A DNA stretch of 64,000 bases from positions 1,381,501-1,445,500 of the forward strand of contig NZ_CP060092.1 of assembly GCF_014217335.1 (NCBI RefSeq). Direction: 5' to 3'. How positions within the stretch are numbered: position 1 is the stretch's first letter; every line of letters begins with the position of its first letter. Below are positions 20,165-58,238 of this stretch, one piece after another. The stretch comes from Teredinibacter purpureus. GTDB taxonomy: Bacteria; Pseudomonadota; Gammaproteobacteria; Pseudomonadales; Cellvibrionaceae. The position numbers and the translations under genes were made by a program. The notes below the pieces were generated by a model that worked only from the letters and a program-made list of their open reading frames with translations, made no database searches and had not been told where the DNA came from.

Positions 20165-20325
20165 GCTAAACGCCAATATCTCAGGCTGGTATCGGGCTTG
20201 TGCTTTTGCGATTGAAAGCACTTACCGTTGCGGGGGCAGCGTTGGATTCTCACCAACTTCCCATTTCGCTCTGCCGTTTTACGTGCGCAGAGGACCGGAA
20301 ACGGGGCGACTTTAGGCGCGTAGGT
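20165..20325 (-). promoter_or_regulatory. Cobalamin riboswitch aptamer upstream of btuB
   Basis: On the minus strand this stretch carries the conserved core of the AdoCbl riboswitch: GGGAAGTTGGTGAGAATCC, then CCCCCGCAACGGTAAG, then the B12-box-like AGCCCGATACCAGCC. CGCC (20315-20318) and GGCG (20171-20174) can close a P1-type stem. It lies about 150 bases upstream of btuB and should repress btuB, and perhaps the whole cob cluster, when cobalamin is abundant. A minus-strand reading frame across it (20137-20337) is not a gene. Confidence 0.93.
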
Positions 20326-20627
20326 TGTCTTTGTCAACTTATTCCCATAGCCTCAAATGGGGTTCTCTTGAAGATAAAGGCGGCCTAATTAAACATTGGG
20401 TGTTAGCAGAAGGCGTCATCTTGGGGCGGCCGTGTATCATTTTAGGTCTCGCGAAGGGCTGGGCACGCTGGCAATTGCCTGCGTGATTGACGGGGATGCA
20501 GCAATGTGCGCCTAGAATGGGCGTGTCAGGTCAAAAAGTTGAGAATAACGGGTGATGGTATGAGGTTTGCTATATTCACTCGGATAAGTGCATTTTTAAC
20601 TGTAATAACCGTATTGAGAGAGACAAC

Positions 20628-41540: not shown

Positions 41541-41599
41541 AACGATGTCCTGATAACGATGAGTAGGGTTTATGTTTTGTGAGTATCTAATCTATGTAT

Positions 41600-41617
41600 A
41601 TCCAAAATCGTGCCATC
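41600..41617 (-). promoter_or_regulatory. Decayed sigma-54-like promoter upstream of the broken LruC gene
   Basis: On the minus strand ATGGCACG-ATTT-TGGAT: the -24 box TGGCACG is perfect, but the -12 GC is GA, so it should no longer work. It lies 60 bases before the gene start and has TTTTGCGAAT and CTTTGCGTTTTGCAAAAG-like sequences upstream (41702-41747). Confidence 0.45.
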
Positions 41618-41749
41618 TTTTATCGTGTTTGTAAGCCCCCAAAACCTTGAGGAAATGCGAGATTACCCATTATTGAGTGGTAAGCGGCGAAGGTATTCAA
41701 CATTTTGCGAATGTGCTTTTTAAATTGCTTTGCGTTTTGCAAAAGCGTA

Positions 41750-43857: not shown

Positions 43858-45146
43858 GCAGATTTCTCAACAGGTAGATCGCTCGTGATACCAGGGCGCA
43901 AACTAATGCCTACCCACATCAAAGCTGGCCAATAAACGTAGGCTAGAATTTCCAGGTTTTCAAAAAAACTGTAACTTACCATTACGACGCAAATCGCAAG
44001 CCCTGTACGGGCAACTTTTGATTTTTGTGCGGCGATAAGCATGTAAATACACGTGAGAGATAAAGGAATTGCGAGCGCAAATAGCCCTACAATACCTTTA
44101 ACAAAGAGCAGGCCGTACCAAGAATGGTGGGTGCCAATTGGCATAAACTCCACAATTTTTGGGCCACGCTCAACAACGCCATGGCCCCATATGGGGGCTT
44201 CGTTTTCCCACCGTTGAAGGGCTAGCCGTTCTAATGTACCGCGCACACGTGTTGAACCCGGACGGCTTTCTTTGATTTGAGTGTAGGACTCCATCACCCA
44301 TTGGTAAACGGGTTCGCCTATTAAAACGAGAGCGGGTATTAGAATACCGGCTGCCAGCCATGAGAGTGGGTTTCGTAAAGTACCTAACCCAATCATGATG
44401 GGTACAATCGCCATAAAAATAACCCAGCCCGCGCGCGATTGGCTGAGTAGACACATGGTCACCGCGCCTACTATGCCTGCGTTTCGCCAAAACTTATCTT
44501 TTTCGGCTAAACATAACACCAAATAAAAACAACTTAAGAGCCCGGCTGCCGGTGCCCATGGCCCAATGAACTGCCAGCGAGCAGCACCTGTTTCGGGGTT
44601 TATGCCATAAAGTTTAACGACAAATAATTCGGTTGGGCCGCCAATGGCTTTAACGGGCGAAATAAATAAGTCGCCGGAAACGCCAATACTCGATGCGACT
44701 ATTCCTAATGCCGCGAAGGGCGTCGCGCTGGCTGCAGCAATACAACAACCGCGTGCCACAATTTGAGGGCGAATGTTTATCATGCACCCCAATAAAGGAA
44801 ACAGTGCGAGCAAAGCCCAGCCTTTTGCCCAACCAATGGAGGATTTGATTGTAGGGCCTGTTCCCATTTGGCGATCAATATGTGCGACGAGTAATGCCAG
44901 AAGCATGACAAACATGCAAATAATCCACAGCCACACGATGGGTGATATTTTTGAAATTGGATTAATTGAAAAGCCGCGCTTACCGAGAAGGTAGACTTTT
45001 AGTGAAAAGAGTATCAGTAGCAGCCACCCCAAAGCAGACCCGAGAACATAGAGCCCGCCTATAAGATAAATGGGGTAAGTGAGTGTTAGGCTATAAAAAA
45101 CTAACTGTTCTTCAGCAGTAAGTCGATCAAATACTGACGATGCCAT
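43854..45146 (-). CDS. Wzy/O-antigen ligase-like polymerase
   Basis: A 430-residue inner-membrane protein with about eleven hydrophobic helices and a large periplasmic loop (about 240-330) containing the Wzy_C-like PGSTRVRGTLERL and GHGVVERGPK and the histidine stretch GTHHSWYG. It should polymerise lipid-linked repeat units at the periplasmic face. Its start overlaps the end of the wzz gene by 46 bases. Confidence 0.85.
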   Translation of the reverse strand: MASSVFDRLTAEEQLVFYSLTLTYPIYLIGGLYVLGSALGWLLLILFSLKVYLLGKRGFSINPISKISPIVWLWIICMFVMLLALLVAHIDRQMGTGPTIKSSIGWAKGWALLALFPLLGCMINIRPQIVARGCCIAAASATPFAALGIVASSIGVSGDLFISPVKAIGGPTELFVVKLYGINPETGAARWQFIGPWAPAAGLLSCFYLVLCLAEKDKFWRNAGIVGAVTMCLLSQSRAGWVIFMAIVPIMIGLGTLRNPLSWLAAGILIPALVLIGEPVYQWVMESYTQIKESRPGSTRVRGTLERLALQRWENEAPIWGHGVVERGPKIVEFMPIGTHHSWYGLLFVKGIVGLFALAIPLSLTCIYMLIAAQKSKVARTGLAICVVMVSYSFFENLEILAYVYWPALMWVGISLRPGITSDLPVEKSA

Positions 45147-46492
45147 GCCGTTATCAGTCCAAAGAGAATAAACACCACGCCTAACACCCCAACGGCCATA
45201 GCAATCACTTTACTTGGGCTTTTGGGCTTAGAGGGCAATGACGGTACAGACAAAATTTGAACCGCAGGATAAGACGCAAAAATATCCGCTTTGCCTGCTT
45301 CTAAACGTGCGGCGGCCGACGTGAAAACGGCCTCTGCCAGTGAGTGTTCTCGCTCCAGCCTTTCCAATTCTGCCGACTCGCGCGTATACACTTTTAACCG
45401 GTCACGCAATTTAGCTTCCGCTTGTGAAAGCTCATTAATTTCTGCTTGAGAACCCTGTAGTTTTGCGTAGCTATCCATGAGTGAAGCGAAGAGGTCGGCC
45501 CTATGTACGCTATTTTGTAAATTCATTGAATGTAGTAAATCGCCCGCTTGCTCGCCAACTATAATTTTACTACGATGAAGAAGAGAGCTTTTAGCGCCTT
45601 CGAACCGTGCCTTTTGTGCGACAACTTTGGGGTGTTTTTCGCCCCAAAGCGATGAATATTCAGCGGCCTTCATTGCACTTGCATCAAGTTCTTGAAGATA
45701 ACCTTTAAATTCCGGGTCACTCTGTAAACGGAATGCTTGGCCAGCCAGAGAAGGTGATACCCCTAGATCTATACCCAATTGCCGTACAAAGTCTTCTGTA
45801 TTGCGAGCAAGGGAACGACTGGATAATATTTTTTCGTTCACGGTGGTAATGGTATTCATGAGCTGCGCGACTTGATCGCTAGACACTAGCAGCGACCGCT
45901 GTTGAAACTCCACGATCGCGCTGCGTGTTTGCGCAAGACGAAGCCGGTATTGCTCAAGTGCCGCACGCACACTATTGTCACGTCTGAATAGCTCGTCTTG
46001 TCTAAGCCGATCAAGGGACTCTTGGAAAGAGTCGTAAATTGCCCAACCATATTCTTGCGCTCTTTCTGGAGAGCCGGAGGGCACATGTATAAAAAGAATA
46101 GAGGTTCTTTCGCGTAGCTCGACACGGGGCTTTGCTACATCTTCAAATCGAACCCCGAGTCTATCGGCCACGCTAGACATGACTTCACGACTTTTTAAAA
46201 TCTCTTTGTAATTCACCAGAGGGCTAAAGGCGACACTGGAAAATGGCGTGTTAGTCACTTGGTTCGCCGCACCTACATTATCGATATTAAAACTACTAGA
46301 GCTTCCAGAGCCCGGTAATACAATACTCAATACGCTGGAATACACCGGTGGGCGTGAAAGGTAAAAGAAAACCAGGCCGACAATGCCGAGGATGGATAAT
46401 AGTGCCACCCAAACATAGCGGAAGCTACGTAAACGCCAAATAGCGCGTCTTACGTAGTGGCTAGTATCAATGGGTACAGGTAGGGTATTCAT
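45101..46492 (-). CDS. Wzz/Wzc-type chain-length and export regulator, no kinase domain
   Basis: A 463-residue polysaccharide co-polymerase: a first membrane helix (about 30-50), a long periplasmic coiled-coil part (about 130-400), a Pro-rich motif SVPSLPSKPKSPSK and a second helix (about 428-448). A Walker tyrosine-kinase domain as in Wzc is lacking, and no separate kinase or Wzb phosphatase is in the window. It sets chain length and bridges Wzy with the outer-membrane exporter. Confidence 0.88.
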   Translation of the reverse strand: MNTLPVPIDTSHYVRRAIWRLRSFRYVWVALLSILGIVGLVFFYLSRPPVYSSVLSIVLPGSGSSSSFNIDNVGAANQVTNTPFSSVAFSPLVNYKEILKSREVMSSVADRLGVRFEDVAKPRVELRERTSILFIHVPSGSPERAQEYGWAIYDSFQESLDRLRQDELFRRDNSVRAALEQYRLRLAQTRSAIVEFQQRSLLVSSDQVAQLMNTITTVNEKILSSRSLARNTEDFVRQLGIDLGVSPSLAGQAFRLQSDPEFKGYLQELDASAMKAAEYSSLWGEKHPKVVAQKARFEGAKSSLLHRSKIIVGEQAGDLLHSMNLQNSVHRADLFASLMDSYAKLQGSQAEINELSQAEAKLRDRLKVYTRESAELERLEREHSLAEAVFTSAAARLEAGKADIFASYPAVQILSVPSLPSKPKSPSKVIAMAVGVLGVVFILFGLITAWHRQYLIDLLLKNS

Positions 46493-46516: not shown

Positions 46517-47779
46517 TTAAAATAATAGCTGAAGTGGTGAGATTATTTCGCTAATACCTCTAGCGAAGTCACGTAAATTTGTTACGTCAGAGTCGTAGCA
46601 GGCAAGGGCATCGTTGGGCATTAACATGGGGTTAATATCTTCGCGTAAAGCGTGGCGCATAAGTTGTTCAACAGAACGTTCGATGACTTGCATTTCACCG
46701 GTAATAGGGTTTTTACTGGCGAGCACTACTTTGCGTGGCGCGTTTGTCAGCTGTGTACCGCCGACGCAGTTTGCAGAAATGGATGCCTGCAATAACGTCG
46801 TGCCATAAGGCAGGCTAGTGCTATAACGACCAATGGCGGCGCTGGCATTATCGTTTGCACTGTTAGTGAGGTTTGACATAAATACGCGAAACCCCTTTGG
46901 TGTAATTTGCGAGGGACGAACAAGCGCCGGTTGGAAACACCCAGTGGTGGGGACAATAATTTGGTCGCCGTCGACTAGAGCGACATCCTGAGACGGGAGG
47001 CCATTAATAATGCCAGACACATCGAGCTCTATCTGCCACCCCTGACGAATTAATATGACTTGGTTGACTTTTGCATCGGGTCGAACGCCGGAAGCTGCCC
47101 GAAGAGCTTCAACAATGGAGCGACGAGCAGCATAATCACCGACAGCAGACAGCCGTTCGCTTACAATACTTTCTTGTCTATTTTCATTAATGGTAACGCG
47201 CCCGGGCTGGAATACTGCCCCTCCCACCGTAATATTGACCGGTGCCCAGTGCTTAACCTGCACGCTCACGCGGGCGGTTGTAGGCCGAAAAAGTTCGGCA
47301 CGAATAAGTGAAATTTCAATTTTTTCAGCCAGCTGCTGCGCGGTAATACCGGACGCGGCTATGGGTAAAAGTAAAGGTAATTGCACGGAACCGTCGGGGT
47401 TGAGCACGTAATTCCCGCTGAAACCATCGCCATTTTCAATTTTAATATCGAGCATGTCACCGGGGCTAAGGGGTAGTTCTTGATTGAAAATGTGCAACGG
47501 TGGAGCGCCTTTAGCGTTCTTTTGTTGTGTGGATAGCCCATGATCGGCGCGATAATGAACCGATTTTAAATAGTGTCCAGTGCTTTCACAGTTGAGGTTA
47601 GAGGCGTAGACATATCGCTCGGTATTGTTATGCGCGATATATTCACCTGCTTCATCCGAAGCACCGTAAAATTTTTCGGAAGGGTTGGCAGGCGTTTGCA
47701 TTGAGTGGTGTTGGGTGCAGGCCGAGAGCCACATTGCTAACAGTGGGAAAACAATTTTTCTGTTGTGAACAATATCCAT
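46517..47779 (-). CDS. Outer-membrane polysaccharide export lipoprotein (Wza family)
   Basis: A 420-residue lipoprotein: hydrophobic start, lipobox LSAC with Cys about 21 (AMWLSAC), then the Poly_export domain (LSPGDMLDIKIENGDGFSGNYVLNPDGSVQLP) and SLBB-type ligand-binding domains (VNITVGGAVFQPGRV; LRAASGVRPDAKVNQVILIR). It should form the outer-membrane channel for EPS. It is the first gene of a leftward operon (wza, wzz, wzy, pyruvyl transferase, GT2) under a sigma-54 promoter 40 bases upstream. Confidence 0.9.
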   Translation of the reverse strand: MDIVHNRKIVFPLLAMWLSACTQHHSMQTPANPSEKFYGASDEAGEYIAHNNTERYVYASNLNCESTGHYLKSVHYRADHGLSTQQKNAKGAPPLHIFNQELPLSPGDMLDIKIENGDGFSGNYVLNPDGSVQLPLLLPIAASGITAQQLAEKIEISLIRAELFRPTTARVSVQVKHWAPVNITVGGAVFQPGRVTINENRQESIVSERLSAVGDYAARRSIVEALRAASGVRPDAKVNQVILIRQGWQIELDVSGIINGLPSQDVALVDGDQIIVPTTGCFQPALVRPSQITPKGFRVFMSNLTNSANDNASAAIGRYSTSLPYGTTLLQASISANCVGGTQLTNAPRKVVLASKNPITGEMQVIERSVEQLMRHALREDINPMLMPNDALACYDSDVTNLRDFARGISEIISPLQLLF

Positions 47780-47819
47780 AATGCGATCTCAGTTACCTAA
47801 AAAGTCAGTTACTTAATTG

Positions 47820-47839
47820 ATTGCACACGGCATGCCAAC
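47820..47839 (-). promoter_or_regulatory. Sigma-54 promoter of the wza operon
   Basis: Minus strand TTGGCATG-CCGT-GTGCA. The invariant GG (47836-47835) and GC (47824-47823) are separated by exactly ten bases. Predicted transcription start is about 47811, some 32 bases before the wza ATG. Consensus is YTGGCACG-N4-TTGCW. Confidence 0.75.
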
Positions 47840-48250
47840 TATCAACGCGTTGATTTCTATGGTATTTATGGTTTTGTATTTTCACTGCGATAACATTATT
47901 TGCAGAATGCGTCATAACCTGTCGGAACGCGCATTACGTTCGCAATATGCGACATTATTTTTTTATAGCCGGAAGGCTAATTTTTGAGTTGTTGCGTAGA
48001 TTTGTTGTATAACGTACGAAAAAATAGGCAGTAAAATATCGAAGGTGACGTTGCAAAACCCGTATTGTATTTTTAGACATTAATGCTACGCCACACTGGG
48101 TTGTGTCGCGTGGTTAAGGTGTTGCTATAACGTATAGAGTGCAGTGTTAGGAGTATGAGTGAGGGGCTATGGGTAGTGGTAAATGCCGAAGCAATATTAA
48201 GGCGTTGTAAGCACGCGGGTTTAAATTTCTCCGTTTGGCCTTGTACAACG

Positions 48251-48275
48251 AAAAAAACCGGCTAATGGCCGGTTT
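48251..48275 (-). terminator. Terminator after the sugar transferase gene
   Basis: On the minus strand AAACCGGC, a short loop, GCCGGTTTTTTT; a classical stem and T-run 25 bases after the stop. Confidence 0.88.
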
Positions 48276-48301
48276 AAACAGTAATGCCGATAGGTCTTTT
48301 T

Positions 48302-48979
48302 CTAGTAAGCGCCGCGCCCTGTCACAACGGCGGGAATGGTAAGTGCAATAATTTTGATATCATTAAAGAGACTCTTCTCTTCAATATAACGTAAATCCAA
48401 ATTAATTTGCTCATCAAAGGTGGTGTCGGCTCGGCCAGATATCTGCCATAAACCGGTAAGCCCTGGTTTGGTGTTCAAGCGTAGACGAGCTTTGGCGTCG
48501 TATGCGGCCACCTCAGCAGGAAGTGCTGGTCGTGGGCCAACAAGTCCCATTTCACCGCGTACTACATTCAGTAGCTGTGGTAATTCATCAATCGACAATT
48601 TGCGAATGATACGGCCGATGGGTGTGATACGTGGATCGTGGAAAAATTTCTTACATACGCCATCACGGTCGCTATCAATTGTAGAGGTGTCCACATATTT
48701 AGGGTCAGAGGGTAGGTACATGGAGCGAAACTTATACAGGGTAAAAGTTTCGCCATTCTCGCCTACACGTATTTGAGTAAATACGGCGTTGCCGCGGCTT
48801 TCAAATTTGATGGCTGCAATCACTAAGAGTAGGAGTGGCGATAGGGCGATAATCGCGAGTAAAGCTGTCGCTTGCTGTATAAATAATGGCAGGCCAGGTT
48901 GAAACGTATTGTCAATAATATCGTGAGCGGCGGCCAATAGTAACTGCGAAGAGGTTGGGCTAGTTGTTAACTTGTACAT
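48302..48979 (-). CDS. Priming undecaprenyl-phosphate sugar phosphotransferase
   Basis: A 225-residue bacterial sugar transferase (short WbaP/ExoY-type, one N-terminal membrane segment about 36-58). It has the full catalytic set: FTLYKFRSMY, KLSIDELPQLLNVVRGEMGLVGPRPALP and TKPGLTGLWQISGRA. It starts EPS assembly by moving a sugar-1-phosphate to the lipid carrier. ATG 48979 has AGGAG upstream. It is a single gene with its own sigma-54 promoter and its own terminator. Confidence 0.93.
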   Translation of the reverse strand: MYKLTTSPTSSQLLLAAAHDIIDNTFQPGLPLFIQQATALLAIIALSPLLLLVIAAIKFESRGNAVFTQIRVGENGETFTLYKFRSMYLPSDPKYVDTSTIDSDRDGVCKKFFHDPRITPIGRIIRKLSIDELPQLLNVVRGEMGLVGPRPALPAEVAAYDAKARLRLNTKPGLTGLWQISGRADTTFDEQINLDLRYIEEKSLFNDIKIIALTIPAVVTGRGAY

Positions 48980-49022
48980 GTGAATAACTCCTATCGAGTA
49001 TCGTGATTACTGTATAAAGGTT

Positions 49023-49042
49023 ATTGCAGCTAGCGTGCCAAA
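49023..49042 (-). promoter_or_regulatory. Sigma-54 promoter of the sugar transferase gene
   Basis: Minus strand TTGGCACG-CTAG-CTGCA. GG at 49039-49038 and GC at 49027-49026 have ten bases between. The -24 box is perfect and the -12 box differs at one base. Predicted start is about 49014, 35 bases before the ATG. It is the best match of the set. Confidence 0.85.
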
Positions 49043-49150
49043 AAAGGAAGGGTTTTTTAGTCTTTAAGTTTTACAAAAACACTATTTTAATACCTTTTAT
49101 AGGGGCTTCTAAGCGGTAATATAAGTAGTTTTCGTGAAATCACATACTCG

Positions 49151-49200
49151 CTTTGCGAAATACAAAAAATCGATAGTGTCTGCTTTGCAAAATAAAAAAA
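49151..49200. promoter_or_regulatory. Two candidate enhancer motifs upstream of the sugar transferase promoter
   Basis: GCTTTGCGAAATACAAAAAA (49150-49169) and GCTTTGCAAAATAAAAAAA (49182-49200) are near copies about 32 bases apart, three helical turns, and lie 110-160 bases upstream of the sigma-54 promoter, the usual place for activator sites. Confidence 0.4.
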
Positions 49201-49223
49201 ATCCGCGTAGTGCGGATTTTTGT
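49193..49223. terminator. Terminator after the WecG-type fusion gene
   Basis: On the minus strand AAAATCCGCACTACGCGGATTTTTTTTATTT; the stem ATCCGC/GCGGAT has T-runs on both sides and lies 30 bases after the stop. Confidence 0.85.
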
Positions 49224-49252
49224 GTTGAGTCTAAACAGGCTATTGAGTAACA

Positions 49253-50488
49253 CTAACTGTTTTTTACCTGTGTGAATAAACGTAGTAAAAATAGAGGGTT
49301 ACCAACAACGTAGCGATTAAATTTTGCCTTGGGTTCTTGCATTAAACGATACATCCATTCCATACCGAGCTCCCTCATCCACATGGGGCATCGACTAATA
49401 CGGCCCGAGTAGAAATCAAACAGCCCGCCAACGGCCATTGTCGTATGGGTATTAAGCTTATCTTTATTGCGGGAAACCCAGCTTTCTTGAATGGGTGAAC
49501 CCATGGCAACAAGGCATATATCGGCACCGGATTGATTGATGTCGGCAATAACATCCGCTTCTTGTTCTTGGTTGAAGAATCCGTGCTGTGTTCCAGCAAT
49601 GACTAGACCAGGAAATTGTATTTGAAGGTTTTTCGCAGCGGTACTTGCTACACCAGGCGCAGAACCCAGTAGGTATAGGGATTGTTTGCGAGCGTTCGCT
49701 TGGGTGCAAATGTGAGGCAGTAAATCGGTGCCATTTAAGTTATCGCGTAAGTTTATGCCGTTGTGCTTGGCGCCAAGCCGAACACCGGATCCATCGGCAA
49801 AAACATAGTCGCCGCAATTGAGCGTTTCGAGAAAATCTTTATTATCGTGTGCGAGATTAACTGAATTTACGTTAACAAAAAATACTGATTTTGCCCGTAT
49901 TGAGGTGTGATTGAAAATCACTTCTAGTGCCTCATTAAGCGTTAGGTTATTTATGTTGATACCAAATAGAGAAAACTTAAGTGGGCTGGAGAGACCTTTA
50001 GAGCTGTTGCGATACAGTATCGAGCAGATGATATATTTGACGATTAACAACGCATTAAATTGAATTGAATTGTGTTTTTCGTGATGACGAATGGACTCAC
50101 CGTGTGTCATTTCTATATTGCCGACCGATTTATGGGTGTCGAATAGGCTGATGATACCGGGTTTTAACGGCGTTAACGTTGATAGCGCATCGTTGGTACA
50201 AACAGAATGAAGGCTAACACCACACATAGAGATGTTTCCCTTCATTACATTAAAAAGTAACGCCGATTTTTTAAGTACGCCCTTGCGCCATTGCAGTAGC
50301 GATTGTGGTCGGCCGAGGGCATCTGAACGTTGCATACTGCGTAAGGCCGACTTACCTGCGACTATTGCTAAAAGGGCGTTGATTAACATTAAGGGGGAGA
50401 GTACGAGGACCAACAAAATCGCCACAAATGTGTCAAATAGAACAATGGACGAGACTATTTTTGTGTGTGAATGATAAGGGCTGTACAT
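49253..50488 (-). CDS. WecG/TagA-type glycosyltransferase fused to a degenerate sugar-transferase domain
   Basis: A 411-residue protein. The C-terminal 240 residues are a GT26 glycosyltransferase (FSLFGININNLTLNEAL, VNSVNLAHDNKDF, FADGSGVRLGAKHNG, GSAPGVASTAAKNLQ, VAMGSPIQESWVSRNKD). The N-terminal 170 residues look like a worn-out bacterial sugar transferase domain: a membrane helix (IVLFDTFVAILLVLVLSPLML), then LLFNVMKGNISMCG and LKPGIISLFDTHKSVG, which parallel LLNVVRGEMGLVGPRP and TKPGLTGLWQISGRA of the intact enzyme 48302-48979. KFRSM and the PRP are missing, so that half is probably only a membrane anchor or scaffold. ATG 50488 has GAGG eight bases before; the longer frame is not used. 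Confidence 0.85.
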   Translation of the reverse strand: MYSPYHSHTKIVSSIVLFDTFVAILLVLVLSPLMLINALLAIVAGKSALRSMQRSDALGRPQSLLQWRKGVLKKSALLFNVMKGNISMCGVSLHSVCTNDALSTLTPLKPGIISLFDTHKSVGNIEMTHGESIRHHEKHNSIQFNALLIVKYIICSILYRNSSKGLSSPLKFSLFGININNLTLNEALEVIFNHTSIRAKSVFFVNVNSVNLAHDNKDFLETLNCGDYVFADGSGVRLGAKHNGINLRDNLNGTDLLPHICTQANARKQSLYLLGSAPGVASTAAKNLQIQFPGLVIAGTQHGFFNQEQEADVIADINQSGADICLVAMGSPIQESWVSRNKDKLNTHTTMAVGGLFDFYSGRISRCPMWMRELGMEWMYRLMQEPKAKFNRYVVGNPLFLLRLFTQVKNS

Positions 50489-50524
50489 AATGTTTACCTC
50501 AATGTGTATTTCGTTATTGAGGTT

Positions 50525-50544
50525 TTTGCAGAGACTATGCCAGT
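50525..50544 (-). promoter_or_regulatory. Sigma-54 promoter of the WecG-type fusion gene
   Basis: Minus strand CTGGCATA-GTCT-CTGCA. GG at 50541-50540 and GC at 50529-50528 have ten bases between. Predicted start is about 50516, 28 bases before ATG 50488. Confidence 0.75.
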
Positions 50545-50602
50545 TTTTTAACGTGTTGATTCGTATAGTTATTGTATGATTATAAGGTGTTTGTGTGGTG
50601 CT

Positions 50603-50660
50603 TATTTGCAAAGTGAAAAGCGTTAGTATTTGCAATTTACAACGCTGCGCAAATTGCAAA
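50603..50660. promoter_or_regulatory. Candidate enhancer cluster upstream of the WecG-type promoter
   Basis: TATTTGCAAAG (50603-50613) is followed by TTTGCAATTT (50629-50638) and its exact reverse complement AAATTGCAAA (50651-50660), twelve bases apart. The cluster lies 60-120 bases upstream of the sigma-54 promoter. Confidence 0.45.
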
Positions 50661-50697
50661 AAAACGAATGCTTTGAAAGGACTATAGTGTTCGGTGC

Positions 50698-51423
50698 TTA
50701 GAATTCAGGAAATTTATTTTGGGTGGCGACGGTTAACGCGATCATTTTTTGGGTTAGTGATTTCTGAGGGCCAGGCAAACAACGTGCCGCTCGGGTTAGA
50801 ACTGACTGCAATGTTTTGGTCGTTTTATATAAGATAAAATCCGTTAGGGCGGGTTTATAAAGATGGCGAAGTGGCCCTGCACTGTAGTGCCGAATAAAAT
50901 CGGTTAGGGTTTCATCTCGATTGTTGTTCCACCGATGATCCAGTAAATGAACATGCGGGTTCGATTTAGCATAATGGATGACATGACCGTTCTCGCCCCA
51001 GCCTACATCGTCCTCTTCTGGTAAGGCTTCTTGGCAGTTTTTGATAATTGTTTCGATATACGCGCGCGAGTGTGCGTCATTTCGAAGAATAATAACGCCG
51101 GAATTCACGCGTTCGCTATAGCCATTGGCCATGTAAATACTTTTGTTGAATGAATTGAGCTGTTCGAAGGGGGGGCATCGTGGCGTAACCTCAGTGTCTG
51201 CGTCGAGAAAAACCACCCATTCATAGTCTTTTTTTAGGGCTTCACGCAGCAAGAATATTTTTAACCACACCACATCCAAGTCCAGCGTGGAGACTTTTGG
51301 TCGGTCGACTACACTGTATAAATAACCGTTTTTTTGTGCGAATGCTTTATGCGACTGCAAGCACGTTCGATAGCGCCATTGAAAGCCGCCCGTCGCCAGC
51401 GAAAATAACAAACTATTGGCCAT
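50698..51423 (-). CDS. Putative nucleotide-diphospho-sugar transferase
   Basis: A 241-residue soluble protein with FSLATGGFQWRYRTCLQSHK near the start, DLDVVWLKIFLLREAL, a DXD-type motif in WVVFLDADTEV and MANGYSERVNSGVIILR. This order resembles the GT34/GMA12-like or galactosyl transferase group that uses UDP-sugars. The exact family is uncertain. It lies in the EPS locus between the fusion gene and the regulator and is read leftward, 85 bases from the divergent regulator start. Confidence 0.7.
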   Translation of the reverse strand: MANSLLFSLATGGFQWRYRTCLQSHKAFAQKNGYLYSVVDRPKVSTLDLDVVWLKIFLLREALKKDYEWVVFLDADTEVTPRCPPFEQLNSFNKSIYMANGYSERVNSGVIILRNDAHSRAYIETIIKNCQEALPEEDDVGWGENGHVIHYAKSNPHVHLLDHRWNNNRDETLTDFIRHYSAGPLRHLYKPALTDFILYKTTKTLQSVLTRAARCLPGPQKSLTQKMIALTVATQNKFPEF

Positions 51424-51508
51424 AGAGACTTGCCTAGCAATATACGTGTCATTTTATTCTAGTCGTTATTCCATAGCGCAATCGATATTAACTAACAGTG
51501 AGATTTCT

Positions 51509-52990
51509 ATGCCTGATAGCGTAGGCCCCAATGCCGCGAGAATACTCTTTGTTGACGATGAAACTTCAATTTTAAAAAGTTTGCGTCGTGTTACTCGGCC
51601 GCTAAACAGCGAATGTGTATTTGTGGAAAGTGGTGCCGAGGCACTCGCTCTTCTAGAGGCGTCACCGTTTGACGTTATTGTATCGGATATGCGCATGCCG
51701 GAAATGGACGGCGCAGTGTTGTTGTCTCAGGTCGCAAAACGTTACCCAGAGACAATGCGATTAGTGCTGTCAGGTTATTCCGAAGATGAACTTATTATGT
51801 CGGCGATTAATGAAGGCCGCATTTGGGGGTATATCCATAAACCCTGGGATGACAATCTATTGCTGGTAACGCTACAGCAAGCGTTAGCAGCGCAGCAAAT
51901 GATGGTGGAGCGCGCGCTCTTACGTCACACCGTTGAGCGGTTTACGCGAGAACATAAGTCGGGATTCTGTCGATTCGTGGGGGCCTCTGCGGCCATGCAA
52001 ACGGTTTATAATCAAATCGAGCGTGTGGCACCGAGTAATGCTTCCGTTTTTATTACGGGGCCGAGCGGCACGGGTAAGGAGCTGGCGGCGGAAGCGTTAC
52101 ATCAATTGAGTTCACGTCAACAGGGGCCGCTGGTGCCGCTCAATTGTGCCGCTATTCCGAGTGAGTTAATGGAGTCTGAAATATTTGGCCATGTAAAGGG
52201 TGCGTTCTCTGGTGCTGTGGCTAATAGAGAGGGTGCTGCAGGCCAAGCCAGTGGCGGCACGTTGTTTCTCGATGAGCTGGGTGAAATGGATATTTCGTTG
52301 CAAGCTAAGTTGCTACGTTTTATTCAGACGGGCACTTATCAAAAAGTAGGTGGCTCGAAATTGGAAACCGCCGATATTCGATTTGTGTGTGCGACCAACC
52401 GTAACCCGCTACAGGCGATTGCGGAAGGTTTATTGCGCGAAGATTTGTATTATCGGTTAAATGTTGTGTCGATTAATATGCCACTTTTAGCAGAACGCGA
52501 TAATGACGCATCGCAACTTGCGAATTATTTTTTGCAGCTATTTGCAAAACGCGAGGAGAAAGAGTTGGTCGGCTTTACTCAGGACGCTGAGAAAGTCATA
52601 GATACCTACGGTTGGCCCGGTAATGTTAGGCAGCTAGAAAATTGCGTGCACAGTGTTGTGGTGATGTGCAGTGGCCCGCTTATTACTGTAGAAGATTTAA
52701 AAACAGCGTTACATCTAACCGACACGGATATAGCAGCCTTCCAATCTAGGCCTGTATTGTCGTCTTCTTTAGAATTGGAAAGCCCTCTAGAGCCCGCTGT
52801 TCTAGTGGGCTCTGGTGCCGCACTTCCTTCTTCCTCTGAACAATTAAAACCACTCTCTGTGGTAGAGCGAGACTATATTGAAAAGGCAATTGAGCGCTGT
52901 CAGGGCAATGTAGTGAAGGCCGCTACGTGTCTGGAAGTAAGCCCTTCTACGCTGTATCGCAAAATGCAAAATTGGGAAGCAAAAGTTTAA
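51509..52990 (+). CDS. NtrC-class sigma-54-dependent response regulator
   Basis: A 493-residue enhancer-binding protein. The REC domain (1-125) has D16/D17 region FVDDE, phosphoacceptor D60 in VIVSDMRMPEMDG and YIHKPWDD. The AAA+ domain (about 158-390) has Walker A GPSGTGKE (184-191), the sigma-54 contact loop GAFSGA (231-236) and Walker B TLFLDELGEM (251-260). A Fis-type HTH closes it (VVKAATCLEVSPSTLYRKMQ). All marks of a working activator are intact. ATG 51509 has GTGAG seven bases before; the longer frame overlaps the divergent gene. No partner kinase is next to it. Given four sigma-54 promoters around it, it is the likely activator of the EPS genes; Vibrio fischeri SypG is a known parallel. 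Confidence 0.92.
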   Translation: MPDSVGPNAARILFVDDETSILKSLRRVTRPLNSECVFVESGAEALALLEASPFDVIVSDMRMPEMDGAVLLSQVAKRYPETMRLVLSGYSEDELIMSAINEGRIWGYIHKPWDDNLLLVTLQQALAAQQMMVERALLRHTVERFTREHKSGFCRFVGASAAMQTVYNQIERVAPSNASVFITGPSGTGKELAAEALHQLSSRQQGPLVPLNCAAIPSELMESEIFGHVKGAFSGAVANREGAAGQASGGTLFLDELGEMDISLQAKLLRFIQTGTYQKVGGSKLETADIRFVCATNRNPLQAIAEGLLREDLYYRLNVVSINMPLLAERDNDASQLANYFLQLFAKREEKELVGFTQDAEKVIDTYGWPGNVRQLENCVHSVVVMCSGPLITVEDLKTALHLTDTDIAAFQSRPVLSSSLELESPLEPAVLVGSGAALPSSSEQLKPLSVVERDYIEKAIERCQGNVVKAATCLEVSPSTLYRKMQNWEAKV

Positions 52991-53063
52991 CAAAAGATTT
53001 ATGCGTAGCGGTGATGCGCACCTTATACCTTCCGTCTGGGGCATAAATTTAGCAAACTCACAT

Positions 53064-53083
53064 TGTGGTAAGCGTCTTGCAGT
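53064..53083 (+). promoter_or_regulatory. Sigma-54 promoter of the wzx operon
   Basis: GTGGTAAG-CGTC-TTGCA. GG at 53067-53068 and GC at 53079-53080 have ten bases between. The -12 box is perfect; the -24 box has two mismatches. Predicted start is about 53092, 25 bases before the wzx ATG. Confidence 0.65.
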
Positions 53084-53116
53084 ACCTTTCCAAACCCTCA
53101 TGTTGGATAGGCCGTA

Positions 53117-54373
53117 ATGTTGCAGTTTCTTAAAAATCGAATTCAAGACAAACTTTTTCGAAACACCAGTTGGATGCTGCTATCGGAAGCCACAGCCAAA
53201 ATCAGCCGGTTACTCACCGTGGTTGTTATGGCGGCCTACTTGACCCCTGTTCAGTTTGGTATCGCCAGCCTTGCGTTGGTGTGTCACGAATTGATGCGTA
53301 TTTTCAGCCGCGCCGGTGCCGGTGCGGCAGTCATTCAGTGTGAAGAGAGCGATTTAAAGGCTACGGCGGCGAACGCCTCACTGCTGCAATGGGTAATGTG
53401 TATCACGCTCGTTGGGCTGCAGTTTGGTGCGGCCGATTTTATTGCCGGTTATTACCAGGAACCTAAAATGGCGCCATTGCTGAAAATAATGGCGTTTACC
53501 TACCTGTGTTACCCGCTCGTAGCGGTGAAAGTCTTTATGGTTCAGCGCGAAAATCGTATGCGTTTTTTTGCTTTTGCCAATACGCTGAACATATCGACGG
53601 ACAATTTAAGCACGGTCGTATTTCTCATGCTCGATTTTGGCATTGCATCAGTTGCTTATGCCAAAGTTATCACGGCCTTTAGTTGGGTGCTTATTTTTGC
53701 GTTCGCACGCGTTAAGTCGGTTCGTCCTGGCTTTGATTCCTCCATATTCCCAAAATTAACGGTTATGTCCCTGCATATTTTTGGGTCTGAGTCGGCGAGA
53801 GTGTTGCGTTCGCAAATTGATATATTAATTGCAGCAAAATTACTCAGTGCAGAAGCTTTAGGGTTATATAGCTTCGCCAAAAATGCGGGCGTTGGTTTAA
53901 GTCAATCAATTGCCAATGCGTTTTTCGCAGGACTTTACCCGTATATATGCGAAAAAATTCGCTTGGGTTTTGCCGAGCAAGCAAAACGCAAGGCGCTTAT
54001 TTATGCTGGGGCTATATCAACAATTTTCGTCATGCAATCGCTAGCGGCGCCGTTCTATATTCAACTTCTTTTTGATGTTCGATGGGAATCGGCGGGTTCA
54101 ATTGTCGCGGTTCTGTGTTTTACCGGCGTGTCACTTATATTTGTTGACACATTAGGGCTCGTTTTTCGAGCGCTTAAGCAAACACTGAGCGAGTTGGCCC
54201 TAATCTTGTATTGTGTAATGACGACGACCAGTGCGTTGCTCTTCTTTCAGCCTGAGACTACAACGGAGCTCGCATGGACAACAACTTTGGTCAGTTTTAC
54301 GTGGTTACTACCCGTAATACTGCAACTACGAATGAAACAACATTTTGTTCAACAAAAGGTAACTGCATCATGA
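53117..54373 (+). CDS. Wzx-type polysaccharide flippase (MOP superfamily)
   Basis: A 418-residue inner-membrane protein with about twelve helices. It opens with the flippase pattern SWMLLSEATAKISRLLTVVVMAAYLTPVQFG in parts, and GIASLALVCHELMRIFSRAGAGAAVIQ. It belongs to the Wzx/RfbX or lipid III flippase group that turns lipid-linked repeats to the periplasm. Its stop overlaps the next ATG by four bases. The 3' end of the regulator is 127 bases upstream; the gap holds a sigma-54 promoter. Confidence 0.9.
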   Translation: MLQFLKNRIQDKLFRNTSWMLLSEATAKISRLLTVVVMAAYLTPVQFGIASLALVCHELMRIFSRAGAGAAVIQCEESDLKATAANASLLQWVMCITLVGLQFGAADFIAGYYQEPKMAPLLKIMAFTYLCYPLVAVKVFMVQRENRMRFFAFANTLNISTDNLSTVVFLMLDFGIASVAYAKVITAFSWVLIFAFARVKSVRPGFDSSIFPKLTVMSLHIFGSESARVLRSQIDILIAAKLLSAEALGLYSFAKNAGVGLSQSIANAFFAGLYPYICEKIRLGFAEQAKRKALIYAGAISTIFVMQSLAAPFYIQLLFDVRWESAGSIVAVLCFTGVSLIFVDTLGLVFRALKQTLSELALILYCVMTTTSALLFFQPETTTELAWTTTLVSFTWLLPVILQLRMKQHFVQQKVTAS

Positions 54374-55386
54374 ACAACAGCAAACCCATTTTTTCCGTCG
54401 TAATGCCTATGTACAACGTTGAGCGATATGTCGCGCAGGCGATAGATTCCGTACTTGCGCAAACCTATAAACATTTTGAATTAATCTGCGTAAACGATGG
54501 CTGTACAGATGATACGTTACGCATCGTGGCTGCCTATGATGATTCTCGTATCAAAGTGGTACATCAGAAAAATATGGGGCTTGCGGCGGCCCGTAATACG
54601 GGTATTAACTACGCGAATGGTGTGTTTGTAGCGTTGTTAGATTCGGACGATGCCTGGCGTTCAAATAAGCTGTCTGAACATTTTAAACATTTTCGCAATA
54701 CCCCAGATTTAGATATTAGCTATAGCGCGTCGCGCTTTATGGATGAAGATGGTGTGGATATGGGTATTGGTCAATACCCTCAGTTGAACGATATTACACC
54801 GCAAGTCATTTTTTGTCGTAACCCCATTGGGAATGGATCGGCTGCCGTAATACGCAAAAGCCTGCTTACGAATATAGCGGAGCGAAAAGTGGTTGATGGA
54901 GCATTTAGAACAACGTATTTCGATGAAGATTTTCGACAGTCTGAAGACGTTGAATTTTGGTTGCGTGCAGCGCTTAAAACCGACTGTGTATTTGGTGGTA
55001 TTGGCGAGGCCTTGACTCAGTATCGTGTGAACGCGAGCGGCTTAAGCGCAAATTTAGATAATCAATTTGCGGCGTGGAAAAGTTCAGTCAATAAAAATCA
55101 GTCGATATCACCGGTGTTTTTTAGCCGCTGGGAGAGCTTAGCGGAAGCGTATCAAAAACGTTATTTAGCTCGTCGTGCGGTTCAGGCGCGTAATAGTTTT
55201 GTCGCGCTTAAATTGGTGTGCTCAGCAGTTGCAACGGATTGGAGAATTGTAAAACAGGAACCTGTAAGAACAGCCGCAACGTTTGGTTGTGCGGTATTGT
55301 CCGTGCTACCGACTAGCGTGTACGCTGCAATTGAACACGCAGGTATGATGACAGCCAATCATTTTCGTAAAAGTGAAGCGGCTTAA
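54370..55386 (+). CDS. Family 2 glycosyltransferase
   Basis: A 338-residue GT2 enzyme: FSVVMPMYNVERYVAQAIDS near the start, ICVNDGCTDDTLRIV, NMGLAAARNTGINYANG and the DXD-type LLDSDDAWRSNKL. ATG 54370 is chosen because it begins just before the conserved block and overlaps the wzx stop (ATGA); the longer frame inside wzx is not used. A hydrophobic C-terminal stretch (about 300-325) may tether it to the membrane. Confidence 0.9.
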   Translation: MNNSKPIFSVVMPMYNVERYVAQAIDSVLAQTYKHFELICVNDGCTDDTLRIVAAYDDSRIKVVHQKNMGLAAARNTGINYANGVFVALLDSDDAWRSNKLSEHFKHFRNTPDLDISYSASRFMDEDGVDMGIGQYPQLNDITPQVIFCRNPIGNGSAAVIRKSLLTNIAERKVVDGAFRTTYFDEDFRQSEDVEFWLRAALKTDCVFGGIGEALTQYRVNASGLSANLDNQFAAWKSSVNKNQSISPVFFSRWESLAEAYQKRYLARRAVQARNSFVALKLVCSAVATDWRIVKQEPVRTAATFGCAVLSVLPTSVYAAIEHAGMMTANHFRKSEAA

Positions 55387-55434: not shown

Positions 55435-56361
55435 TTATTCTGTGGTAACGGGAATAGCGATAGTAAACGTTGTGCCGCGCTCTGCATTACTCGTCACGCT
55501 AAGTTCACCTCCGTGCTTGGTGATAATGCCATGGGAAATAGAAAGGCCTAAACCTGTACCTTTTCCTGGAGCCTTAGTAGAGAAGAACGGATCAAATATT
55601 CTATCGATGTCCATGGGTGAAATACCCTTCCCCGTATCAGAAATTTTTACGTAGAGAAGCCCTTTTTCAATACTGGTAACTATTGAAATAGTCCCTTTCG
55701 ATTCTATCGCCTGTGCAGCATTCACCAGCAAATTCAAAATAACTTGAGAGAATCCCCCTGCATAGCCGTCAATTGCGGGCAAATCACTGTATTGCTCAAC
55801 TATATCGCCTTTGTATTTGAGTTCGTTCCACACGAGTTTTAGTGTGGAGCGAATAGATTCATTGACGTCGAACGGTTTTTTTTCGTCGGTGTCGGGCCGA
55901 GAGAAATCCTTCAGGCTTCTGACTATTTCGGATATGCGCTCCATTCCCGAAATGGAGTCCGAGATAATATCGTTGAAATCGTCCATTAAAAACGCGATGT
56001 CATAATTTTTATAGGCGTCTGCGATCACGCTCGTGATTTCGGGATCTTTATCGAGCGCAATGACGGTCTCTATAAACCCGTTGATGTCGCTTTTATATTT
56101 TTTTAAGGTATTAAGATTACTGCGTACGTAGGCTGAAGGGTTGTTTATTTCGTGTGCAACGCCGGCCGATAGTTGGCCCATGGATGCCAGTTTTTCTTGG
56201 TGTAAGAGCTGTGCTTTTTGAAAGCGCAGGCGGTTGTAAGCAGTGGTTAGGGTAGAGGTCGCTTCATGGAGCTCGCGAGATTTATCTTCGAGTAATTTGT
56301 CGGCGTATTCACGCGCTTTTTTTTGCCGTTCATAGGCGGCTTTGTAATCTGGGTTGGTCAT
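55435..56361 (-). CDS. Soluble histidine kinase of the H-NOX operon
   Basis: A 308-residue cytoplasmic kinase: a helical N-terminus (1-55), an H-box ASMGQLSAGVAHEINNPSAYV with His about 70, and a HATPase domain (ILNLLVNAAQAIESKG, KISDTGKGISPMDIDRIFDPFF, GKGTGLGLSISHGII). No sensor domain or membrane segment is present. Its start overlaps the H-NOX stop by four bases (ATGA), as in known H-NOX/kinase pairs where the haem protein controls autophosphorylation. It is the last gene of the operon. Confidence 0.9.
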   Translation of the reverse strand: MTNPDYKAAYERQKKAREYADKLLEDKSRELHEATSTLTTAYNRLRFQKAQLLHQEKLASMGQLSAGVAHEINNPSAYVRSNLNTLKKYKSDINGFIETVIALDKDPEITSVIADAYKNYDIAFLMDDFNDIISDSISGMERISEIVRSLKDFSRPDTDEKKPFDVNESIRSTLKLVWNELKYKGDIVEQYSDLPAIDGYAGGFSQVILNLLVNAAQAIESKGTISIVTSIEKGLLYVKISDTGKGISPMDIDRIFDPFFSTKAPGKGTGLGLSISHGIITKHGGELSVTSNAERGTTFTIAIPVTTE

Positions 56362-56900
56362 AGAATACGAATGTCGATTAAGCAGTGGTCTTCGCCGGTA
56401 TGCATACAGGTGTTTTGGATGATATCAATGGCTACGTCGTACTGCTTAGCTGCGCCGTATATCAGCCCCTCTGCTAGCAAACAGAGCTTTCTGGGTGAGG
56501 TGTAATACATTTGCATATGCTGGTTATTTACCGCGGTACATCGAATTTGAGGAAGGTGGGCGTCGTGGTAGAGTTTTTCGACTTCTTTGTGAATAACGCC
56601 TTCAATACTGGAGAGAAAACTAAAAAAAGTGGGTTGTACTTTTCTAAAAACGGGAAATTTGCTATCTAACTCTGTAAATAAATATTCGCCGAACGCGCGT
56701 TTTACATCGCTTTTAGAGAGTTTGAGGTGCTCAGAGATTACGTCGACAAAGGTGAGCATTTCTGAATCTTCATAACTGTGTGCGGAAGCGTATATGCCCC
56801 CGGAGGATGGCGCTACTTTTTCAAGAATTGCTTCCCAGGTTTGCATACCATAATTCTTTTCGATCATATCGTTTAGAGCGATGAATACGGCGCCTTTCAT
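56358..56900 (-). CDS. H-NOX haem nitric oxide-sensing protein
   Basis: A 180-residue H-NOX domain protein: MKGAVFIALNDMI start, W22, the haem-ligand His at 104 in GVIHKEVEKLYHDAHLP and the YxSxR haem-propionate motif at 133-137 (YTSPR). H-NOX proteins of this type bind NO and signal through a partner kinase. Cys140, Cys165 and Cys173 are placed like the zinc/redox-site cysteines reported in Shewanella H-NOX; the fourth ligand would have to be H167 or H172. I cannot tell from sequence whether O2 also binds. It lies between the HD-GYP regulator and the kinase. Confidence 0.95.
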   Translation of the reverse strand: MKGAVFIALNDMIEKNYGMQTWEAILEKVAPSSGGIYASAHSYEDSEMLTFVDVISEHLKLSKSDVKRAFGEYLFTELDSKFPVFRKVQPTFFSFLSSIEGVIHKEVEKLYHDAHLPQIRCTAVNNQHMQMYYTSPRKLCLLAEGLIYGAAKQYDVAIDIIQNTCMHTGEDHCLIDIRIL

Positions 56901-56924: not shown

Positions 56925-58238
56925 TTAGTTCACCCTATTGCGAACCTGTATATCTAAATGCTCACCGGTACTGTTTTCGTAGCGCGTTAGTTTTTCAATA
57001 TGCGCCCTCGTTAGAGGCGTTCCTGTGCGTAGTAGCAGTACTTGATTGGCCGAAAAAAGATCGCTAGAAAGAATCATTCCGGGCGTTAGGTGCTGTCGAT
57101 CTTTCGTGAGTATAGTTGACTCTGACAACAGTGAGTGTTCGTCGATAATATCAAAGAGGGCGCTGGTTACTTGGTGGTCATAATAACGGCCTGTTCGGCT
57201 CTCGATGTAGGCGCGCGCCTCGTTATGGCCGCTTACGTTATTGGTTAAACGACCTTCGAATAGTAATACATAATCGGTAACAACACCCATTATGCGCGCG
57301 GGCATTGGAATCTCGTTTTTATTTAAACCGCGTGGGTAACCGCTACCATCAAGACGCTCTTTATGCTTGCCAATGATTTCGGCGACAGGGTTAAGTTCGG
57401 CCATGCCGCTCAAAATGGTTTCGCCAATTTCAACTTGCGCTTGGTAACGTTTTAGCTCGTTGTTGTCGAGTTCGGAAACAACTTTATAGCTCCAATAATC
57501 CGACATGGCTAGGCTGCCAATATTGTGGAGCTTTCCGGCAACGTCTAAATTGTCCTGGTCTCGGGTGCTAACGTTTAGTGCCTTTGCAAGGCTAATGGAG
57601 GTATTGGCAATGAAGTGCCCGTGACCGTCACCTTTGCCACTGAGCTCTATAATGTTAGACACGGCATTGAGTAAATCCAGCGTGCGGCACTCGGCTTTTT
57701 TATGCTCAATTTGGAGAAGCGAGAGCGCTTGTTCTACTTCTATATTTTTTTCCTTTACGCTACGGTCAAGGCTCAACGCTAGTTTTCCAAGCTTTCGGTT
57801 TTGCGTGCGCGTTAATGCTTCAAGGCGTTTTCGTTCACGTTGTGAGGATTGGAATTCAACGGCATTTTGAATAACGCTACTTAATACTTGGTCGTCCCAC
57901 GGTTTAGAGATGTAGTTAAATATTTTTGCCTCGTTGACGACTTTTTCCAAGGCATACACGTCTGAGTAGCCCGTAATGAGAATACGCTCGGTTTCGGGTT
58001 GTAGCTTGCGTACTTGGCTTAAGAATTCGGCGCCGTCCATTTCGGGCATACGCATATCGGAAACCACTACATCAATAGTGTTCTCCTCAAGAATAGCCAA
58101 ACCCTCTTTGGCTGAATTCGCACAATAGACGTCCCATTGTTCATCTCTCGAAAGCCGCTTTAATGCTTTCAATACGGGTAGTTCGTCGTCTACGAATAGA
58201 ATCTTGGGTGAGGTTGCGGTGGTCTCTGATATTTGCAT
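56925..58238 (-). CDS. Response regulator with degenerate HD-GYP domain (HnoD-like)
   Basis: A 437-residue protein: a REC domain (1-130) with D61 in VVVSDMRMPEMDG, a coiled-coil linker (130-185) and an HD-GYP domain. The HD pair reads HN (H238-N239 in KLHNIGSLAMSD) and the usual GK after it reads GS, so a metal-binding Asp and a Lys are missing. The GYP part is kept (HKERLDGSGYPRGL, G300-P302). It is therefore probably not a c-di-GMP phosphodiesterase; it may be a regulatory protein, like Shewanella HnoD. It heads the operon with the H-NOX and kinase genes (gap 24 bases). Confidence 0.88.
   Translation of the reverse strand: MQISETTATSPKILFVDDELPVLKALKRLSRDEQWDVYCANSAKEGLAILEENTIDVVVSDMRMPEMDGAEFLSQVRKLQPETERILITGYSDVYALEKVVNEAKIFNYISKPWDDQVLSSVIQNAVEFQSSQRERKRLEALTRTQNRKLGKLALSLDRSVKEKNIEVEQALSLLQIEHKKAECRTLDLLNAVSNIIELSGKGDGHGHFIANTSISLAKALNVSTRDQDNLDVAGKLHNIGSLAMSDYWSYKVVSELDNNELKRYQAQVEIGETILSGMAELNPVAEIIGKHKERLDGSGYPRGLNKNEIPMPARIMGVVTDYVLLFEGRLTNNVSGHNEARAYIESRTGRYYDHQVTSALFDIIDEHSLLSESTILTKDRQHLTPGMILSSDLFSANQVLLLRTGTPLTRAHIEKLTRYENSTGEHLDIQVRNRVN

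Follow-up and report, generated by a model that had tools for sequence, protein, structure and literature searches.

A probable local sigma-54 regulon in an exopolysaccharide locus of Teredinibacter purpureus and its possible link to nitric oxide sensing

Background

Several described regulatory systems offer points of comparison for an exopolysaccharide (EPS) locus of Teredinibacter purpureus, which belongs to the same family (Cellvibrionaceae) as Saccharophagus. The locus lies at 41.8-55.4 kb of the stretch analysed here (the window: 64,000 nucleotides, positions 1,381,501 to 1,445,500 of contig NZ_CP060092.1, in a genome of 4.89 Mb) and comprises wza, wzz, a wzy/ligase-like gene, a pyruvyl transferase gene, glycosyltransferase genes, a sugar transferase gene, a WecG-type gene and wzx; it carries four candidate sigma-54 promoter elements and, in its middle, the gene of an NtrC-class regulator, here called REG. 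In the syp locus of Vibrio fischeri a sigma-54 promoter and sites for the activator SypG are described for every one of the four operons (PMC10804989); the locus is stimulated by HahK, a kinase controlled by nitric oxide (NO) and HnoX, acting through SypF and LuxU (PMC12369376). SypG sites at the qrr1 promoter overlap LuxO boxes (PMC10162802); the LuxO box, TTGCAW3TGCAA, is placed about 100 bp upstream of the sigma-54 promoter (PMC11443567). The PrsK/PrsR system of PEP-CTERM/EpsH is EPS-linked and includes an NtrC-class regulator and a conserved upstream motif with a sigma-54 site (PMC1569441). A haem NO-binding (H-NOX) kinase of Shewanella works with several response regulators, among them HnoC, a transcription factor that represses the hno regulon, and the same source lists the effect of the Saccharophagus H-NOX/kinase pairs as unknown (PMC8738867).

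On the sequence evidence from this locus and its relatives, the EPS genes very probably form a local sigma-54 regulon with REG as its activator. Three of the promoters are well supported and the fourth, that of wzx, is likely. REG would bind TTYGCA-N3-TGCRAA boxes some 50-160 bp upstream of the wza, sugar transferase, WecG-type and wzx elements and, through ATP hydrolysis, would drive open-complex formation by the RpoN-polymerase; we infer this binding and activation. An H-NOX-gated kinase encoded beside the locus may phosphorylate REG and so place EPS transcription under nitric oxide control. An earlier note on this DNA had proposed a sigma-54 regulon with its likely activator in the middle, which is borne out at the level of sequence by the rank and position of the elements, the enhancer boxes, the recurrence of both in relatives, the occurrence of REG and the wzy-like gene in the same 13 of 81 genomes and the lack of a second helix-turn-helix (HTH) of this type in the genome. 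The finding is stronger than that note stated, and the note mentions neither the enhancer boxes nor the LuxO type of the HTH, nor does it have the H-NOX/kinase module or the LruC-type gene that is broken in the window.

The likeness to syp is one of design: both have four sigma-54 operons that carry enhancer sites and a single bacterial enhancer-binding protein (bEBP) encoded inside the polysaccharide locus. To these comes an H-NOX-controlled kinase, HahK in syp and the H-NOX-linked candidate beside the locus here. The earlier note had remarked that gene set and order look different; they do differ, but the design is shared. HahK has a receiver domain and works via SypF and LuxU, whereas the kinase here is short, has no receiver match and adjoins the locus, and the REG receiver resembles that of a neighbouring HD-GYP protein. 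This comparison with syp and SypG uses published descriptions rather than V. fischeri sequences. LuxO is matched in box type, in box position before a sigma-54 promoter and in the recognition helix of the HTH; in contrast, the targets here are EPS genes, the REG receiver shares just 25% identity with the receiver of a Vibrio LuxO (L120) and so is not LuxO-like, and Rfam finds no Qrr RNA in the window. Like PrsR, REG is an EPS-linked NtrC-class regulator with an upstream motif and a sigma-54 site, but it falls under the TIGR02915 cut-off, and a separate true PrsR and an exosortase are encoded elsewhere in the genome. As with HnoB/HnoC of Shewanella, an H-NOX kinase is found with several regulators, one of them a transcription factor; HnoC is a repressor, however, and the candidate here is a sigma-54 activator of EPS genes.

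If the interpretation is true, syp-style control (one bEBP, several sigma-54 operons, NO input) extends beyond Vibrio with a different receiver. The locus would then be a concrete output for the H-NOX/kinase pairs of the family, namely EPS operons with defined promoters and boxes, and it supplies promoters on which NO control of biofilm in this group can be tested directly. The matched switches and the nearby NO sensor suggest that the path by which nitric oxide acts on biofilm polysaccharide may be short. Among the papers listed on EPS, sigma-54 and Cellvibrionaceae, on H-NOX, kinases and bEBPs, and on H-NOX in Saccharophagus degradans, none concerned this locus as judged by title and the start of the abstract, and others may exist.

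Results and Discussion

Sigma-54 elements of the EPS locus

The weight matrix used to rank sigma-54 elements was written after the sites were already known. Scanning all 64 kb, it placed the elements of the sugar transferase, the WecG-type gene and wza at the top (19.8, 17.3 and 16.2 bits), as against 0.4 matches of at least 16 bits in shuffled windows. The four GG-N10-GC elements of the earlier note exist as written and each precedes an EPS gene. Of these four sites three head the list, whereas the wzx site comes seventh. The note's spacing of 25-35 bases from the expected start needs correction, the actual gap from element end to start codon being 35-45 bp for all four. That no element lies inside a gene holds given a start of the WecG-type gene at ATG 50488; the longest open reading frame (ORF), which opens at a TTG, would span the element.

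Pattern counts are less informative. A degenerate sigma-54 pattern with two mismatches occurs 29 times in the window against 35.65 expected, and the LuxO box with two mismatches is likewise at chance level over the window; for this reason the analysis turned to ranked matrices, to placement and to recurrence among relatives. The strict pattern TGGCAYRNNNNYTGCW has 13 matches in the genome, two of them in this locus, 1.5 kb apart, and its reversed control has 24, with a single 16-mer making up 17 of these. Because the pattern is the rarer of the two, the number of matches is no argument; their position is. Eight of the 13 lie 15-70 bp before the start of a same-strand ORF, as compared with none of the 24 control matches or their eight distinct sequences. 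The WecG site misses this position rule for one reason only, that its ORF begins ahead of the real ATG; measured from that ATG, it satisfies the rule. Matches that pass also head fliL, fliK and a flagellar rod gene, and a further match lies about 97 bp ahead of flagellin, which argues that TGGCAYRNNNNYTGCW finds believable sigma-54 promoters. These sequence tests speak against chance for three of the four elements.

Other sigma-54 matches were seen outside the locus. The fourth-best of the window (20555-20571, + strand) lies 56 bp before a 323-aa ORF without a Pfam match. Elsewhere in the genome (L003/L227; C1:213573, C1:214526) a match heads a small gene, with a bEBP gene about 1 kb off; the gene after the small one is tail-sheath-like by inspection, and its partial sequence has no Pfam match. 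The 16-mer TCGTCAGTCGTACGGT, present 17 times in the genome, is probably part of a repeated element.

Recurrence in related loci

The relatives compared are the loci of 12 family genomes with REG (three of them partial) and four further loci of more than 50% identity, one from Colwellia, two from Pseudoalteromonas and one from Psychromonas, chosen among the 80 matches listed; among those matches the only other two above 50% identity, from Marinibactrum and Pseudoteredinibacter, were already in the family set. Elements of at least 12 bits stand ahead of 49 of the 82 genes that could head a transcription unit and of 2 of 102 control genes (wzz, wzy, GT2a, GT2b, REG, kinase, H-NOX, HD-GYP, HTH-receiver, ychF and GH26). 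Without the near-duplicate loci L061 and L062 the counts are 45/74 and 2/92. Seven LruC rows, redone with hand-set starts, and eight rows of other neighbour genes stand outside both counts; none of the latter eight reaches 12 bits. Seven genera of the family have loci in which the elements recur, and in part they also recur in Colwellia, Pseudoalteromonas and Psychromonas.

The elements are most regular before the WecG-type gene (13 of 15 loci) and wza (10 of 12), and they also precede the wcaK-like gene (7 of 13), wzx (7 of 17) and the sugar transferase (5 of 14). All nine sugar transferase genes that lack an element either start within about 62 bp of the WecG end or overlap it. The wcaK-like loci with an element include four of one genus and both of Pseudoalteromonas, where the gene is detached from wzy, and in three loci a perfect box stands beside the element. 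These two patterns suggest that an element tends to go with a transcription unit rather than with a particular gene. The GT34-like gene has an element in 7 of 11 loci, with variable spacing and a box of at most one mismatch in only two.

Enhancer boxes

LuxO-type boxes, found with the LuxO site TTGCA-N3-TGCAA as query, occur upstream of all four elements of the window, starting 74-156 bp away (mostly 48-134 bp in relatives). They differ from the 13-mer TTGCAW3TGCAA by one or two mismatches, and several relatives have boxes that match it perfectly. A matrix trained on 26 boxes, drawn from 33 sites in relatives and from none in the window, ranks as its top nine window positions 41729, 52956, 50605, 47939, 50646, 50629, 52510, 49184 and 49152; seven of these are upstream of the four sigma-54 elements, one precedes the broken LruC gene and one is inside REG. 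Seven window positions score at least 14, compared with 1.55 in shuffles.

Supporting this association, a box with at most one mismatch accompanies 28 of 41 EPS sigma-54 sites (13 lack one), as against 0 of 11 other pattern matches of the genome and 2% of random 120-bp pieces; the 41 sites were hand-picked from matches of at least 12 bits before EPS genes, four being from the window and some from near-identical genomes. When 33 distinct box places outside the window, out of 81 in the genome, were examined, a single weak sigma-54 match was found near a box. This partial check points to the combination of box and element as the apparently specific feature, and further targets may exist elsewhere in the genome. 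The boxes also hint at helical phasing (n=21; Rayleigh p of about 0.005 for a period of 10.5 bp and of 0.0008 for 10 bp), which is only suggestive, as seven periods were tried and the rows are related.

The broken LruC/DUF4842 gene has the best box of the window upstream, with a -24 half that lacks a proper -12 half. Relatives carry longer open copies near REG, with sigma-54 elements of 14.6 bits (L105) and 17.9 bits (L106) or weaker ones accompanied by boxes (L054, L055 and L107); no box was found upstream of the L106 element. The LruC-type gene was probably once a member of the regulon.

The activator REG

The regulator that the earlier note called intact has a receiver with its site at D60, an AAA+ domain and a Fis-type HTH of the LuxO kind, the architecture of a group I bEBP; its receiver, Walker and sensor motifs are conserved in alignment. 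The sigma factor it would serve, RpoN, is encoded in the genome. LuxO is the closest solved structure (Table 1). By the curated cut-offs REG is none of the named family types: it scores 454.4 bits against the LuxO equivalog NF041946 (cut-off 800; Vibrio LuxO L120 reaches 864.3), 353.9 against PrsR TIGR02915 (cut-off 502.6) and 375 against NtrC TIGR01818 (cut-off 558.6). Critical residues of the LuxO recognition helix are given as Ser423, Ile425, Tyr426, Arg427, Lys428 and Leu429 (PMC11407668). The corresponding helix of REG, S-T-L-Y-R-K-M, keeps the Ser, Tyr, Arg and Lys, and its HTH is the only match in the genome (E<=0.01, among five candidates scored).

The receiver resembles that of another protein. 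Among 66 candidates scored in the genome its best non-self match is the receiver of the nearby HD-GYP protein (48% identity, 117.6 bits), followed by that of NtrC (31%, 50 bits). Thus, in sequence type, REG is a chimera of a LuxO-like AAA+/HTH output and a receiver of the kind found in its HD-GYP neighbour.

At E<=1e-120, REG orthologues are present in 13 of the 81 family genomes and in 7 of 32 genera, the window's included, and the wzy-like gene occurs in exactly the same 13 genomes; both are missing from three species that belong to the genus of the window. These 13 genomes are related and do not count as 13 independent cases.

The H-NOX, kinase and HD-GYP module

The HD-GYP protein is encoded 4 kb from REG, together with the H-NOX protein and the short kinase, for which the Pfam scan gave no receiver match. 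The H-NOX signature, the proximal His and YxSxR, is well kept: the His and YxS are present in 14 of 14 copies, and the last position is Arg in the window and Lys in L058 and L214. The HD pair of the HD-GYP protein is replaced in 14 of 14 copies by HN, RN, CQ, HR or IE (the window, L052-L055, L058, L105, L209-L214 and L216; 13 adjoin H-NOX, one is from Colwellia and four are near-identical), so that the NCBIfam label of phosphodiesterase is probably wrong here.

Because the REG receiver is of the HD-GYP-neighbour kind, its phosphate would most likely come from the adjacent H-NOX-linked kinase. Receiver similarity and linkage are the grounds for this step, and its prospects are about evenly balanced. 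The kinase type is widespread in the family (43 of 81 genomes, E<=1e-50), and hence linkage rather than presence carries the argument. In 11 of the 13 REG genomes the H-NOX/kinase pair adjoins EPS genes, in three arrangements: beside GT2b in six (the window's included), directly upstream of wza in four, and beside the GT34-like gene in one (G015), there on a different contig from REG. G063 has the pair some 8 kb off, and in G022 it lies next to a contig end.

A more specific proposal, somewhat doubtful, is that the short kinase phosphorylates both REG and the presumably inactive HD-GYP protein directly, giving one-step NO control without a phosphorelay or cyclic di-GMP turnover; the HD-GYP protein would then be a phosphate competitor or a cyclic di-GMP-responsive partner. 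By analogy with V. fischeri, NO may lower EPS transcription.

In the Colwellia locus (L105, 5181-9628) REG is adjoined by genes for a long kinase, a periplasmic binding protein and an HD-GYP protein, with no H-NOX in the stretch examined; perhaps the NO sensor has been swapped there for a periplasmic-binding-protein sensor before the same kind of kinase. A presumed sensor gene beside REG in Psychromonas was ruled out, being ice-binding-like. Related arrangements were also seen elsewhere. Pseudomaricurvus (L126, 8263-14038) has a related bEBP, then H-NOX, then a long kinase, and a GGDEF gene nearby has a perfect box 105 bp before a 14.6-bit sigma-54 element. In a Halieaceae metagenome-assembled genome (L110, 1729-14007) bEBP, H-NOX and kinase genes are consecutive and adjoin other polysaccharide-like genes.

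Weighing of the interpretation and its alternatives

A number of observations weigh against the proposed regulon or its NO input. The wzx element has 12.2 bits and is not significant alone, as shuffles yield 5.6 matches of at least 12 bits; in 10 of 17 loci the wzx element stays below 12 bits, and the wza and wzx elements of the Colwellia, Pseudoalteromonas and Psychromonas loci score 7.8-10.9 bits. The GT34-like gene of the window has no convincing sigma-54 element (a candidate fifth promoter there, with a score of 11.5 and 12 bp from the start, was not counted). LuxO-like boxes with at most one mismatch occur at 81 places genome-wide against 72 for the reversed control, so the box alone is not specific. 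REG has GAFSGA in its sigma-54 contact loop in place of GAFTGA, and changes of the central Phe and Thr are described as mostly reducing or abolishing activity (PMC3162934). The genome encodes other bEBPs: besides a true PrsR and a true NtrC there are seven further matches. Lastly, receiver similarity and linkage are not proof of phosphotransfer.

Further evidence bears on two of these points. Support for the wzx promoter comes from its box (52956-52970) and from the elements, often weak, that relatives have in the same position. GAFSGA is found in 12 of the 13 sequences compared (REG included; GAFTGA in one), and Thr/Ser is also given at position 4 of the motif (PMC3162934); a Ser in the loop may be compatible with function.

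The alternative that survives best accepts the regulon and has REG fed by an unlinked kinase or phosphorelay, the H-NOX module serving the HD-GYP protein only. This is a serious contender that falls a little short of being probable. One genome (G071) has the H-NOX/HD-GYP/kinase module and no REG match, both Pseudoalteromonas loci combine REG with EPS genes and show no such kinase within about 10 kb on each side, and in V. fischeri direct signalling from HahK to SypG is deemed unlikely, the signal passing via SypF and LuxU (PMC12369376). The adjacency of the pair to EPS genes in 11 of the 13 REG genomes, in three arrangements, and the closeness of the REG receiver to the HD-GYP receiver speak for the adjacent kinase instead.

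That the promoters are sigma-54 dependent and answer to another bEBP is very unlikely. PrsR (C1:2164727) and NtrC (C1:477397) score above their cut-offs, and PrsR is linked to EPS loci in other Proteobacteria (PMC1569441), but the boxes fit a LuxO site, REG alone in the genome has an HTH of this type, and REG shares its genomes with the wzy-like gene. That all four elements are chance matches in spacers is barely credible: the degenerate and strict pattern counts and the score of the wzx site would allow it, but the rank, position and recurrence of the elements and their enhancer boxes do not fit it.

Features of the locus and the window

The features on which the regulon rests, and their neighbours, are collected in Table 1. 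The names Wzz, wzy-like and GT34-like refer to Pfam scores under the curated cut-offs. Two terminator-like hairpins set the WecG-type gene, the sugar transferase and wza apart, and the N-terminus of the WecG-type protein is a possible sugar transferase remnant.

Table 1. Positions of promoter elements, boxes, genes and hairpins in the window
Feature	Position	Strand	Evidence or remark
Broken LruC/DUF4842 gene	40470-41743	-	Box 41729-41743 and decayed -24/-12 element upstream
Family-2 glycosyltransferase (GT2a)	41838-42770	-	PF00535
Polysaccharide pyruvyl transferase (wcaK-like)	42730-43857	-	PF04230
wzy/ligase-like membrane protein	43854-45146	-	PF04932, 28 bits, below cut-off 31.7
Wzz-type chain-length protein	45101-46492	-	PF02706, 23.1 bits, slightly below cut-off 25.5
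wza-type export protein	46517-47779	-	PF02563
Sigma-54 -24/-12 element, wza operon	47822-47838	-	Matrix rank 3 in window
Two boxes for wza	47899-47913, 47939-47953	-	Box scan and relative-trained matrix
Terminator-like hairpin	48255-48275	-	Sequence scan
Bacterial sugar transferase	48302-48979	-	PF02397
Sigma-54 element, sugar transferase	49025-49041	-	Matrix rank 1 in window
Two boxes for sugar transferase	49152-49166, 49184-49198	-	Box scan and relative-trained matrix
Terminator-like hairpin	49197-49221	-	Sequence scan
WecG/TagA/CpsF transferase	49253-50488	-	PF03808; PF02397 below cut-off
Sigma-54 element, WecG-type gene	50527-50543	-	Matrix rank 2 in window
Three boxes for WecG-type gene	50605, 50629, 50646 (span 50605-50660)	-	Box scan and relative-trained matrix
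GT34-like transferase	50698-51423	-	PF05637 below cut-off
REG, NtrC-class activator (putative)	51509-52990	+	Pfam, alignment, closest PDB chain LuxO 5ep0
Box for wzx, within REG 3' end (last codons)	52956-52970	+	Second-best box of window
Weak sigma-54 element, wzx operon	53065-53081	+	12.2 bits, matrix rank 7
wzx flippase and GT2b	53117-55386	+	PF13440, PF00535
Short histidine kinase (307 aa), H-NOX-linked	55435-56361	-	PF02518 over, PF00512 slightly under cut-off; H-box, ATP lid
H-NOX (haem NO-binding) protein	56358-56900	-	PF07700, 135.7 bits; conserved His, YxSxR
Receiver and HD-GYP protein, HD to HN	56925-58238	-	PF13487; above NF053512 cut-off

A scan of the window for sigma-70 promoters gave 21 matches, compared with 30.1 in shuffles. 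Outside the EPS locus, a cobalamin riboswitch (20167-20314, - strand) stands ahead of a TonB-dependent receptor gene.

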